Shown here piece after piece: positions 52,610 through 57,115 of a DNA stretch of 64,000 bases. Origin of the DNA: Synechococcus sp. JA-3-3Ab (GTDB lineage: Bacteria > Cyanobacteriota > Cyanobacteriia > Thermostichales > Thermostichaceae). The position numbers and the translations under genes were made by a program. The notes under the pieces are model-generated. The model had not been told where the DNA came from and did not search any database. It worked only from the letters and a program-made list of their open reading frames with translations. The DNA lies in the NCBI RefSeq assembly GCF_000013205.1, contig NC_007775.1:62001-126000 (forward strand), read 5' to 3'. Every line of letters begins with the position of its first letter. Within the stretch, counting starts at the first letter, position 1.

Positions 52610-52832
52610 TTTTTGCCTGGAAATAGAGAGGAACCTGCTCTGGAAAAAACTTTGGAGAGAGCCTGTCTCAATTGTGGCCGACGCCAGCCAGCAGGACTGG
52701 CTTGATAGGGCAAACTCCTGAAGCCGACTTTAGTGCTCCAACCGCGTAATCGTTAAATGATCTGGGGGAAGAAGGGGAGGAGCGAGAACTTATCTCTTTC
52801 AATGAAAGTAAAGAGTCAGAACCGGGGCAGCT

Positions 52833-53186
52833 ATGAGCGAAACCTTGCAGCACTATTTTGAGCGTCTGGAGTTGCAAATTCAGGAGCTGAAAGCTGCCAT
52901 CGAGCGGATGCCGGAGCAGGTGGCGGCTGCTCTCCTGGCAAAGCAGGAGGCTAAAAAAAATGCCCCCGCCCCCTCCCGTTACAGCGTTCTCACCTCAGAC
53001 TTGGTCGAAGATGGGAGCCACAACTTTTTGCTGGAGGAGGATCCCCCTGTAGTAAGCAACCGCAGCCCGGCGTATGAACTTGCTCCTGAAGCCCAGATCC
53101 AGCGCCTGAGCGCCCAGCTAACCGCTGCCTACAACCGCATTGCTGCTCTAGAAGAACAGCTCTTGGCGCAGCGCCTGCGGCAATGA
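52833..53186 (+). CDS. Hypothetical coiled-coil protein (117 aa)
   Basis: Two helical segments with heptad spacing (LQHYFERLELQIQELKAAIERMPEQVAAALLAKQEAKK and EAQIQRLSAQLTAAYNRIAALEEQLLAQRL) flank a charged, Pro-rich middle with a VLTSDLVEDGS stretch. No enzyme motif; probably a small dimeric adaptor. Convergent to def with one base between the stop codons. Confidence 0.6.
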   Translation: MSETLQHYFERLELQIQELKAAIERMPEQVAAALLAKQEAKKNAPAPSRYSVLTSDLVEDGSHNFLLEEDPPVVSNRSPAYELAPEAQIQRLSAQLTAAYNRIAALEEQLLAQRLRQ

Positions 53187-53187
53187 C

Positions 53188-53784
53188 CTAGCGAGGTTTC
53201 GGTGGAGGGGTGGCAAGTGTGCTGTTTTTGCGCTGCACATCTTGCATCTGGAAGCCGTGCTTGCGCAGCTCCTGATCCAACAGCAGCTCGTTTTCCACGT
53301 GATCCACAAACAGCACACCGTTGAGGTGATCGATTTCGTGTTGGATAACCCGCGCCAGCAGGTCGTCGGCTTGGAGGGTGCGGGGCCGCCCGGTTTCGTC
53401 CTTAAACGAAACCACCACCCCCTGCGGCCGCATGACCTCGCAGAAGACGCCCGGAATGCTAAGGCAGCCTTCCTGGCCGGCTACAACTTCGCCGAGGTAC
53501 TCGCGGATCTCCGGGTTGATCAGCACCAGCGGTGGCACTTCCGGCTTATCGGGATAGAGATCTACCACAATCAAGCGCTTGGGAATGCCCACCTGGGGAG
53601 CTGCCAGGCCAATGCCATCGGCGCTGTACATCGTCTGCAGCATGTGTCGCGCCAACTGGCGGATCTCGTCGTTGACCTGGCTGACGCGCTTGGCCGGCTG
53701 CCGCAGCACCTTGTCACCCATGCGATGGATGCGCAGAGGCGGGTTTTTCAGCTTGGCTTTGGGGACAGAAAGGGTGGCCACCAT
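53188..53784 (-). CDS. def: Peptide deformylase
   Basis: A 198-residue metalloenzyme that removes the formyl group from new proteins. All three motifs are present: GIGLAAPQVG, EGCLSIPGV (metal Cys) and QHEIDHLNGVLF (two metal His and catalytic Glu). Slightly longer than usual, with a Lys/Pro-rich N-terminus and a Thr/Pro-rich tail. Confidence 0.96.
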   Translation of the reverse strand: MVATLSVPKAKLKNPPLRIHRMGDKVLRQPAKRVSQVNDEIRQLARHMLQTMYSADGIGLAAPQVGIPKRLIVVDLYPDKPEVPPLVLINPEIREYLGEVVAGQEGCLSIPGVFCEVMRPQGVVVSFKDETGRPRTLQADDLLARVIQHEIDHLNGVLFVDHVENELLLDQELRKHGFQMQDVQRKNSTLATPPPKPR

Positions 53785-54243
53785 CCGGCAGGTCTCTCAG
53801 AATAAACAACAGCAGACATCCCGTCTGGACTTCCATTCTACATTCAGTCCAAGCCGTGCCGAAGCGATGCGTCTGCTGTTCAGCTCCCCTCTGCCTCTGC
53901 CAGAGAAGCTGGGAATAGTTGCGTCAGCAGCACGGAGTGCTTGGGCTCGGCAGCGGGTAGGGCCGAAGGACTGGCTCGGGCTTGTTTGCAATCACCAAAA
54001 CCTTGGCGGCGCAGGCCCCGTCCTCCCCCTTTCCCCCCGTATACGGGAGGATGCAAGGGGGGCTGGGGATCAGCCGCCTTCTATGCCATGTTCGCCAGCC
54101 CCACCCCGTTTGGGGAGGGTGCAGCGTTGTCAGTATCTGGGCTTAGGTCCAGGTTGGGGTTATGGCCTCCCCCACAAACATATGGCAGTCTCCCGCCCCT
54201 GTAGCTCGCGACAAGCGAGAAAGAATCTGGACTGGGGAGAAGG
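53785..54243. other. Gene-free spacer holding palindrome copy D
   Basis: About 460 bases. The only structure I see is the GTATAC palindrome at 54014-54066. Open frames on both strands are Pro/Arg-rich and unconvincing. Confidence 0.45.
54014..54066. repeat. GTATAC nested palindrome, copy D (intergenic)
   Basis: CCTCCCCC-TTT-C6-GTATAC-GGGAGG-ATGCAA-G6-CTGGGG, centred on 54041/54042. This is the most diverged copy, with one A in the inner G block, but has the same nested layout. Confidence 0.75.
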
Positions 54244-54555
54244 TCAATACAACTCGGAGCTGTCTTCCTCGACCTCTGGGGATCCCTGTTGGTCAATGGC
54301 TTGCTTGAAGCCCAGGGCCACCAGAATGTTGGAGAGGGTGAGGAAAGCCTCTGCTCCCCCATGCAAGGGATCCACATTGGCCAGGGAAGTGCCGTAATGC
54401 AGTTGGGCATACAACCCTGCCGGGATGCTGACGGCCACAAACAGTAGCAGCAGCCAAAACCCGATCAAAGCCAGGCGCGGGATCCGGCGGAGCCGCGACA
54501 GGAAAAACAAGAAGGCCAAATAGGGAAATAGAGAAAGGGCAAACAAACTGTCCAT
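54244..54555 (-). CDS. DUF3593 domain membrane protein
   Basis: A 103-residue protein with two membrane helices and the DUF3593 pattern: LFALSLFPYLAFLFFLSRLRRIPRLALIGFWLLLLFV, then AGLYAQLHYGTSLANVDPLHGGAEAFLTLSNILVALGF. Found in cyanobacteria and plastids, function unknown. Its ATG comes three bases after the DUF2499 stop codon, so it is the last gene of the nblA-DUF2499-DUF3593 unit. Confidence 0.82.
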   Translation of the reverse strand: MDSLFALSLFPYLAFLFFLSRLRRIPRLALIGFWLLLLFVAVSIPAGLYAQLHYGTSLANVDPLHGGAEAFLTLSNILVALGFKQAIDQQGSPEVEEDSSELY

Positions 54556-54558
54556 CGC

Positions 54559-54885
54559 CTAGCTTGGATCCCTCCTCCCAAGGGACTGATCCGCCTGCTC
54601 CGCCCGCCAAATGCGGTAGGCAGCCCAGGCCAGAGTGCAATTGCCCAGAAGTGTCAAGCTCGCCTGGGCAGTTACCACCCAGTTGAGGGCGGGATCGTTG
54701 TCAAACCAGTGCCAGGTAATGGCACACATTGCCCCCACCAGAGCAGGCAACATCGCCCAGCTCAAGCCGCGCCACTCTGGCCGGCCCGTTCGCTCCCCAA
54801 ACTGCCACACGCAAACAATGGCCGCCAGCCATTCCAAGACGCTGGCAATGTGAATCCACCAGGTGGGAAACGAAAGGGCGTGCAT
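54559..54885 (-). CDS. DUF2499 domain membrane protein
   Basis: A 108-residue protein with three membrane helices and the DUF2499 signature HALSFPTWWIHIASVLEWLAAIVCVWQFGE...WRGLSWAMLPALVGAMCAITWHWFDNDPALNW. Function unknown; conserved in cyanobacteria and plants, usually beside DUF3593. The ATG at 54885 overlaps the nblA stop by one base (TGATG), giving translational coupling. Confidence 0.82.
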   Translation of the reverse strand: MHALSFPTWWIHIASVLEWLAAIVCVWQFGERTGRPEWRGLSWAMLPALVGAMCAITWHWFDNDPALNWVVTAQASLTLLGNCTLAWAAYRIWRAEQADQSLGRRDPS

Positions 54886-55070
54886 CAAACCTCAAGAGAA
54901 TGGCGCAGCAACTGGCGGTAGGTGGCCTCCTGCAACAGCATTTGCTTGTGCAGCTTGACCAGGATGTCCTTGGCCTGCTCAGGGCTCATGCGAGCTACCA
55001 GCGTCTCGAAAGCCCGCTGGCGAAATTCTTGCTCCAGAGAGAGACCTAGCGTTTCCTCCATTGTCGTCAC
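54885..55070 (-). CDS. nblA: NblA family phycobilisome degradation protein
   Basis: A 61-residue helical protein with the NblA pattern: LSLEQEFRQRAFETLVARMSPEQAKDILVKLHKQMLLQEATYRQLLRH. NblA docks ClpC on the phycobilisome so that it is degraded when nitrogen or sulfur runs short. It is the first gene of a three-gene unit with DUF2499 and DUF3593. Stress regulation is expected from the family, but I see no NtcA site (GTA-N8-TAC) in the upstream 370 bases. Confidence 0.9.
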   Translation of the reverse strand: MTTMEETLGLSLEQEFRQRAFETLVARMSPEQAKDILVKLHKQMLLQEATYRQLLRHSLEV

Positions 55071-55440
55071 CTTGAGACTCTTAGGGTAGGTGAGAGACTC
55101 GCGCTAGGATATCCCAGCGCTGCTCCCAACAAGCACTGCAAGCAGGACAATACATATCTTAACAATCTAGTTTAACAAGTTGCAACAAAACGACAAGGGC
55201 CTCCGGATACCGGTCGAGCCAGAGCTGGAGGGGAAACTCAACAAAGGAGCGGGAAAAGTACACGCCCGTAAAGTTTGACAAAAGCACATTTTGGATGGGA
55301 AAGTGCGAAGATTTTTGAGCGGCGATCCCTTTACATCCTGTCATGTTGTGCGATTAGGCGGGGCCCCGTGATAAAAGTGAAGTACCTTGAGCTTTGGTTG
55401 CCGCTCTTTCCGATTCGCGCCTTGCTTTGCTTGAATTGCC
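55071..55440. promoter_or_regulatory. Divergent promoter region of nblA and the RRM gene
   Basis: About 370 bases between divergent genes. A minus-strand frame at 55159-55344 (61 codons, ending in LVKLDC) is open but I cannot support it as a gene. TATCCT near 55108-55113 on the minus strand could be an nblA -10. The leader of the RRM gene on the plus strand is pyrimidine-rich just before the ATG. Confidence 0.35.
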
Positions 55441-55692
55441 ATGACCATTTTTGTGGGAAACCTAAACTATAAAGCCTCAACAGAAGAGCTAGCAGCTTTC
55501 TTCCAGCAGAGGTGGAACGTTAAGTCGGTTACAATCCCGATAGACCGAGAAACGGGCCAGACACGGGGCTTCGCGTTTGTGGATTTGGCCACGGAGGCCG
55601 AGGAAGAGGAGGCCATCGACGTCGCCAACGGCCAGGAATTTATGGGCCGACCTTTGCGTTTGGATCGAGCCAGGCCTCGCCGACAGGCTTAG
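55441..55692 (+). CDS. RNA-binding protein with one RRM (cyanobacterial Rbp)
   Basis: An 83-residue single-RRM protein. RNP2 is TIFVGNLNY at the start and RNP1 is TRGFAFVDL in the middle. The short basic tail (LDRARPRRQA) lacks the Gly-rich region seen in cold-induced Rbp proteins. Such proteins bind and localise mRNAs in cyanobacteria. Followed by the SbcD-like gene after about 120 bases. Confidence 0.92.
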   Translation: MTIFVGNLNYKASTEELAAFFQQRWNVKSVTIPIDRETGQTRGFAFVDLATEAEEEEAIDVANGQEFMGRPLRLDRARPRRQA

Positions 55693-55810
55693 CTTCAGCG
55701 GGGATTCCTCATCTGACTCCGAGTGGGGTGCCAATCCAAAAGTTGGCAAGGCAGGCAAACGGCGGGCAGGAGTGAGGGCAACGGATGGAAGGGCTTCAAG
55801 GCTGCTTGAG

Positions 55811-57115
55811 ATGGTGAAGCTGCTGCATTTTTCCGATATTCATTTGGGCAGTGGCTTGGCCTACGGCTCCATCAACCCAGCTACGGGGCTGAACACGCGT
55901 TTGGAGGATTTTGTCGCTTCTTTGCGCCTATGCATTGATCATGCCCTCGATCAGGCTGTGGATCTGGTGCTGTTTGGGGGCGATGCCTTTCCCGACGCGA
56001 CGCCGCCGCCGCTGCACCAAGAGCTCTTTGCCCAACAATTTCGCCGCCTGGCCGATGCCCGGATCCCGACCGTTCTCTTGGTGGGCAACCACGACCAGTA
56101 CGGGCAGGGGCAAGAGGGCAACAGCTTGGCCATCTACCGCGCTCTGGGGGTGGCGGGATTCGTTGTGGGGGATCGGCTGCAGACCCATTGGATTGAAACT
56201 CGCAGCGGCCCGGTGCAGGTGACCACCTTGCCTTGGCTAAACCGCTCCACCCTGCTTGCCCGCCAGGAGAGCCTGGATCTCAATGCCGAAGTATTCACTC
56301 AGCAGCTCCTGCAGCGCCTCGATCTGGCTCTGGAAGGGGAGATCCGCACTTTGCAGCCAGGGATCCCGGCGATTTTGTTGGCCCATGTGATGGTGGATAC
56401 AGCCCGCTACGGGACGGAGCGGCATCTTTCGGTGGGCAAGGGAGTGACGGTGCCCCTGTCGCTGCTGGCGCGGCCCGCCTACCAATACGTGGCTTTGGGT
56501 CATGTGCACCGTCACCAGGTGTTGTGTCGGGATCCCTTGGTAATCTATCCCGGCAGCATTGAGCGAGTCGACTTTGGGGAGGAACAAGAGGAAAAAGGTT
56601 GTGTGTTGGCAGAGGTGACGGCCACGGGGGCGAGCTACGAATTTTTGCCCTTGCCCACCCGCACCTTTCACTCCATCCGCCTTGATCTCACCCCCTATCC
56701 CCCCCAAGAGGTGCAGGCCAAACTGCTGGAGGCCATTGCCAAGGCCCCTGTACCCGGCTCCATCCTGCGCCTGATCTACCGCCTCCGCCCTGACCAGCTC
56801 GATTGCGTTGACGAGCGGACCCTGCACCAGGCCCTCGCCCCTGCCTTCAGCTATACTCTCGTCCCAGACGTGGTCAGCCCCAGCCGCATTCGCCTGCCGG
56901 CCCTGGATCCCAGTTGTCTAGAGCCCCTGACGGCCCTGGAGCACTATCTGGCCGACCGCAGCGATCTGGCCCCCTTGCGCAACGAGTTGCTAGCCGCTGC
57001 TCGTCAGTTGTTGGCGGAAGCAGCAGATCCCTTGTCAGAGGGAAATGCCAACAGGGAGGAGGCAGATCCTGCAAGCCTTGCTGAAGGGGAAGAGCAGCAA
57101 TTGCCCTTGTTCTAG
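55811..57115 (+). CDS. SbcD-like metallophosphoesterase, DNA repair exonuclease
   Basis: About 434 residues from the ATG at 55811. Calcineurin-type metal motifs are complete: LLHFSDIHLGSG, LFGGDAFPDATPPP, LVGNHDQYG, LLAHVMVD and ALGHVHRHQV. The C-terminal capping region has IYPGSIERVDFGEEQEEKGC, typical of SbcD/Mre11. No sbcC partner is adjacent. The upstream open frame overlaps the RRM gene in another register and is not part of this gene. Confidence 0.88.
   Translation: MVKLLHFSDIHLGSGLAYGSINPATGLNTRLEDFVASLRLCIDHALDQAVDLVLFGGDAFPDATPPPLHQELFAQQFRRLADARIPTVLLVGNHDQYGQGQEGNSLAIYRALGVAGFVVGDRLQTHWIETRSGPVQVTTLPWLNRSTLLARQESLDLNAEVFTQQLLQRLDLALEGEIRTLQPGIPAILLAHVMVDTARYGTERHLSVGKGVTVPLSLLARPAYQYVALGHVHRHQVLCRDPLVIYPGSIERVDFGEEQEEKGCVLAEVTATGASYEFLPLPTRTFHSIRLDLTPYPPQEVQAKLLEAIAKAPVPGSILRLIYRLRPDQLDCVDERTLHQALAPAFSYTLVPDVVSPSRIRLPALDPSCLEPLTALEHYLADRSDLAPLRNELLAAARQLLAEAADPLSEGNANREEADPASLAEGEEQQLPLF

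Follow-up and report, generated by a model that had tools for sequence, protein, structure and literature searches.

nblA stands directly before the universal DUF2499-DUF3593 gene pair in one cyanobacterial family and is probably expressed together with it

We analysed a window of 64,000 nucleotides from Synechococcus sp. JA-3-3Ab (the window is this whole stretch of DNA), in which a phycobilisome degradation gene, nblA, is followed by two small genes of the DUF2499 and DUF3593 families. The genes and features at the locus, in coordinates of the window, are:

54885 to 55061, minus strand: nblA, 58 amino acids, ATG start (PF04485, 71.9 bits)
54559 to 54885, minus strand: DUF2499 (Ycf49), 108 amino acids, predicted helical membrane protein (PF10693, 133.7 bits)
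54244 to 54555, minus strand: DUF3593, 103 amino acids, three hydrophobic stretches by hydropathy (PF12159, 130.3 bits)
53188 to 53784, minus strand: def, peptide deformylase (PF01327, 174.4 bits), the next gene downstream of the trio
55067 to 55073, minus strand: Shine-Dalgarno-like AAGGTGA preceding nblA and containing the GTG at 55070, read by eye
55147 to 55188, minus strand: promoter-like block TTGTTG/TTGTTA ... TATTGT, 86 nt before the nblA ATG, from an alignment by eye

By direct reading, the three genes lie head to tail on the minus strand in the order nblA, DUF2499, DUF3593. The nblA stop codon TGA (54887-54885) gives its A to the ATG of DUF2499 (54885-54883), forming the sequence TGATG with a 1-nt overlap, and the DUF2499 stop codon TAG (54561-54559) is followed by GCG, a 3-nt gap, and then by the DUF3593 ATG at 54555. 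Both junctions are as an earlier note on this DNA had described them: the end of nblA overlaps the beginning of DUF2499, and DUF3593 starts three bases past the end of DUF2499. In the spacer after DUF3593 (53790-54240) there is a short dispersed repeat. The genome has 26 further matches, the majority of them to positions 53994-54078 of the spacer; judged by coordinates, this spacer looks shorter in relatives, and the repeat may be a strain-specific insertion.

We found that the first gene of the trio encodes a member of the NblA family, as its PF04485 score of 71.9 bits lies above the cut-off of 25 and it matches the structure PDB 1OJH clearly (phmmer E 2.6e-14). The protein is like known NblA proteins (PF04485; PDB 1OJH, 2Q8V, 2QDO) in length and in sequence over 49 of the 50 Pfam positions. 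It differs from them in that its gene is the first of a DUF2499-DUF3593 unit, standing neither single nor as nblA1-nblA2, and in that it misses the cut-off of the NCBIfam equivalog NF045916 (17.7 bits against 100); we assign it to the family by Pfam and 1OJH and claim no functional equivalence from NF045916. The earlier note describes nblA as a gene that usually stands alone. This is true of the other nblA loci that we looked at, but Synechocystis has nblA1-nblA2, a known co-transcribed pair (PMC12102436). The same source gives NblA as a known adaptor bridging the phycobilisome and the Clp protease (PMC12102436). The gene at this locus is the only nblA in the genome, with one PF04485 match over the single contig of 2,932,766 bases, and there is one nblA per genome throughout the family. 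Phage copies of nblA or DUF2499 resembling these were searched for and none were found.

The nblA gene had been taken to start at the GTG at 55070. This start is unlikely: the GTG sits inside AAGGTGA and is unconserved (GTA in G007, other sequence in G002 and G003). All 8/8 family genomes have the ATG at 55061, and for this reason the ATG is likely the nblA start. In G004, G005, G006 and G008 the Shine-Dalgarno-like stretch reads GAGGTGAT/AAGGTGAT. When the 8 upstream regions of the family were aligned by eye, the promoter-like block was conserved only in the six members of the genus, and its TATTGT reads TATTAT in 4 of the other 5. A generic sigma-70 scan did not list the block, and the generic promoter and terminator scan as a whole performed at chance level. 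An NtcA box (GTAN8TAC) was present within 400 nt of nblA in 0/8 family genomes, a test that carries no weight; before other nblA genes the pattern is also at chance (3/36 vs 3.9 expected by shuffling). The Rfam scan of 52800-56500 gave no match. Between nblA and the divergent gene for an RRM RNA-binding protein, positions 55190-55440 are well conserved, also with no Rfam match, and are possibly the leader of the RRM gene.

To place the arrangement among other cyanobacteria, we viewed 187 genomes at DUF2499, as a rule with flanks of about 1.5-2.5 kb in both directions; seven loci (L221-L225, L230, L243), four of them from NblA-bearing genomes, had less than 600 nt on one side. The adjacency count covers 143 of the 144 NblA-bearing genomes of the class sample, seven of which belong to the family, and the eighth family genome, G003, comes from the order search. 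G235, which bears NblA, was omitted because it has no DUF2499 match; in-frame stops interrupt DUF2499 in G168, and in G277 the gene lies at a contig end. We found that nblA stands directly before DUF2499 on the same strand in 8/8 family genomes, which represent three genera, and that it adjoins DUF2499 in 0/136 NblA-bearing genomes outside the family. The earlier note had allowed for an arrangement unique to this strain; instead, nblA neighbours DUF2499 in all eight family genomes, and in our sample the order is confined to that one family. NblA and DUF2499 are present in 9/9 genomes of the order. In G001, which belongs to a different family of the same order, three nblA genes lie elsewhere and DUF2499-DUF3593-def is found without nblA. 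The NblA proteins of the family form one clade (support 96/88) apart from those of G001 in a tree of 54 columns that is weak on the deeper order. Because the family proteins form one clade, the nblA-DUF2499 linkage probably arose once.

The tightness of the linkage varies with depth in the family. In the genus, the overlap between nblA and DUF2499 is exactly 1 nt in 6/6 members (four TGATG, two TAATG), and DUF2499 and DUF3593 are –4 to +3 nt apart. The corresponding gaps are 5 nt and 8 nt in G002 and 113 nt and –4 nt in G003. The 113 nt that separate nblA from DUF2499 in G003 show that tight coupling is not general in the family. Within the genus, synonymous divergence is about 0.6-1.6 and dN/dS is 0.03-0.11 for the pairs computed; for the three genes over all comparisons yielding a value, dN/dS is 0.03-0.19. 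The trio genes are under purifying selection, and as silent sites have diverged while the overlap is unchanged, the overlap has been kept over time. The flanks have changed. Members of the genus have the RRM gene upstream; different genes stand there in G002 and G003, a DnaJ-like ORF and a chorismate-mutase-like one, assigned by eye only. The def gene lies downstream in the genus, in G002 and in G001, though not in G003. The order of the trio is conserved beyond chance, being present in 8/8 family genomes despite changing flanks on both sides. Because the trio has persisted throughout the family while its flanks were rearranged, it may be under selection as a unit, something that a neutral capture would not need.

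With respect to translation, this strain has a GAGG 4 nt upstream of the DUF2499 ATG, and no such stretch was seen by eye in the 30 nt before the ATG in the other five genus members, which fits re-initiation there. The translational coupling of nblA and DUF2499 proposed in the earlier note is plausible for the genus, where the 1-nt overlap is kept in 6/6 members though the stop codon alternates between TGA and TAA. Judging from spacing and conservation, co-transcription of the trio is likely.

We next consider the two genes behind nblA. DUF2499 scores 133.7 bits against a PF10693 cut-off of 22.1 and has 19 invariant columns in 32 aligned relatives, M1 among the invariant residues; DUF3593 scores 130.3 bits against a PF12159 cut-off of 25. 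The AlphaFold model of DUF2499 (pLDDT 86.4) has helices at residues 6-33, 36-44, 46-60 and 65-105, and the protein is predicted to be a helical bundle. A fold search with this model returned 0 matches at E 0.001 or better, and weaker helical matches were not taken as relatives; single members of the DUF2499 family also gave weak Pfam matches (TMEM144 and others), which were likewise rejected as chance. The DUF3593 model (pLDDT 60.3) was too poor for a fold search. No solved relatives of DUF2499 or DUF3593 were found, and the two families show no homology to each other (hhalign probability 0.1).

The two genes closely resemble the DUF2499/Ycf49 and DUF3593 pair of cyanobacteria and plastids, with the same families, order and strand and with conserved residues in common. 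Compared with the usual pair, nblA is in front only in this family and the pair is otherwise unaltered. DUF2499 and DUF3593 are close together in 127/187 genomes, and DUF2499 comes first, with DUF3593 downstream on the same strand, in 130/130 same-locus pairs. In five genomes of one family (loci L151, L222, L139, L174 and L148; genomes G217, G246, G263, G281 and G304) the pair is fused into one ORF, and a single table entry in the available part of one paper gives such a fusion in a diatom protein as well (PMC3478156). The available parts of the literature contain no account of nblA beside DUF2499 and none of a tested DUF2499 or DUF3593 function (PMC6015050, PMC3999925, PMC10053587, PMC3478156, PMC13358223, PMC7349189, PMC4477158, PMC12102436, PMC7283877).

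When we looked at the class sample of 195 genomes, DUF2499 was present in 194, DUF3593 in 193 and NblA in 144. The 51 genomes without NblA have DUF2499 in 51 cases and DUF3593 in 50. In a phylum sample of 156 genomes, all 70 DUF2499 matches fall within this class, and among the 20 listed of the 86 genomes without DUF2499, 2 are in the class and 18 in other classes. DUF2499-DUF3593 is one universal unit and probably not a phycobilisome-breakdown module. Because the pair is present in genomes without NblA, its core role cannot depend on NblA. Some lineages without NblA also lack phycobilisomes, so that the core role is probably independent of phycobilisomes too.

The universality of the pair also opens a reading in which the change lay on the side of nblA: placed before a constitutive pair, nblA would be expressed at a basal level, serving continuous turnover of phycobilisomes in hot mats, and would not act as a starvation switch. 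A pair found so universally is presumably always needed, and the single nblA of each family genome and the promoter-like block conserved in the genus are consistent with this, but the pair may have an internal promoter of its own. We regard this as possible, though on balance doubtful.

To see what else stands in front of DUF2499, we used the 184 of 187 genomes with an ATG at the expected DUF2499 position and counted same-strand frames of at least 60 codons, in ORF listings that are mechanical and include spurious frames. An upstream frame overlaps DUF2499 by exactly 1 nt in 18/184, of which 6 are nblA, 10 a zinc alcohol dehydrogenase and 2 an AhpC/TSA peroxiredoxin. The latter two groups were each identified by Pfam from one representative and otherwise by a common C-terminal sequence; in G091, which represents the alcohol dehydrogenase group, the gap to DUF2499 is itself 0 nt. 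The zinc alcohol dehydrogenase overlaps are at loci L198, L215, L211, L200, L214, L191, L228, L212, L206 and L217. These 10 genomes (family f20) parallel the present locus in that an unrelated upstream gene is joined to the DUF2499 ATG through TAATG or TGATG, and they differ from it in the partner gene and in that DUF3593 is not near DUF2499. The commonest upstream neighbour of DUF2499, shared by a cluster of 66/187 genomes, is a divergent gene and, judged from one representative, codes for a polysaccharide pyruvyl transferase. As DUF2499 is repeatedly joined to unrelated upstream genes by the same overlap, the nblA overlap is no special evidence of shared function, and the linkage with nblA is best understood as one operon capture among several, each specific to a lineage.

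How far these exchanges go bears on whether nblA merely hitch-hikes, a chance juxtaposition without functional coupling in which the promoter of the pair lies inside nblA. Upstream neighbours are often exchanged, and a same-strand frame of at least 60 codons ends –4 to +30 nt from DUF2499 in 48/184 genomes, some of these frames surely spurious; an exact overlap in all six genus members and an unbroken order in all eight family genomes, kept through the silent divergence and the changed flanks described above, nevertheless make pure chance unlikely.

The earlier note had gone further and suggested, from the coupling, that synthesis of the membrane pair accompanies phycobilisome breakdown, for instance in thylakoid remodelling. 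In full, such a model makes the pair a module for thylakoid remodelling or for quality control of pigments or assembly, with the coupling to nblA marking a common pathway. A tight order with nblA that is conserved across three genera, in a trio that outlasts its flanks, is what such a module would show, yet the genomes without NblA carry the pair genes almost without exception, nblA adjoins the pair in none of the other NblA-bearing genomes, and equally tight DUF2499 overlaps join it to unrelated genes elsewhere. The proposal finds no support in these comparisons and we consider it improbable. A more specific form, in which the pair deals with the docking sites, the freed pigments or the photosystem rebalancing that phycobilisome removal leaves at the thylakoid, and in which the synthesis of the pair was hard-wired to NblA in this family, is more improbable still.

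Taken together, these data favour a capture in the family ancestor followed by coupled expression, probably without a common pathway, an account to which we give a probability of roughly 0.62. A single canonical nblA would have come to sit directly before the old universal DUF2499 (Ycf49)-DUF3593 pair, which in most members is followed by def. The trio would be transcribed from a promoter before nblA, the candidate being the block read by eye from conservation, and NblA would be translated from its own ribosome-binding site. In the genus, a ribosome ending NblA would re-initiate at the overlapping DUF2499 ATG and then proceed to DUF3593. NblA would keep its usual job of bridging phycobilisomes to the Clp protease, and the pair would yield a single small membrane protein of two components that serves the photosynthetic membrane in a general way, with or without NblA. 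On this account the linkage would tie the expression of nblA to that of the pair but would not point to a common pathway.

In this family, expression of nblA is thus probably tied to that of two universal photosynthesis genes that are uncharacterised, and a change in one should therefore show in the other; nblA may have gained basal expression, or the pair may have come to respond to stress. The locus also carries a caution, because three lineages use the same 1-nt overlap to link the DUF2499 start to three unrelated genes, so that its conservation at this locus argues only weakly for a shared function. Given its near-complete presence in the class sample and its natural fusions, the pair is a good target for direct functional study, independent of nblA.
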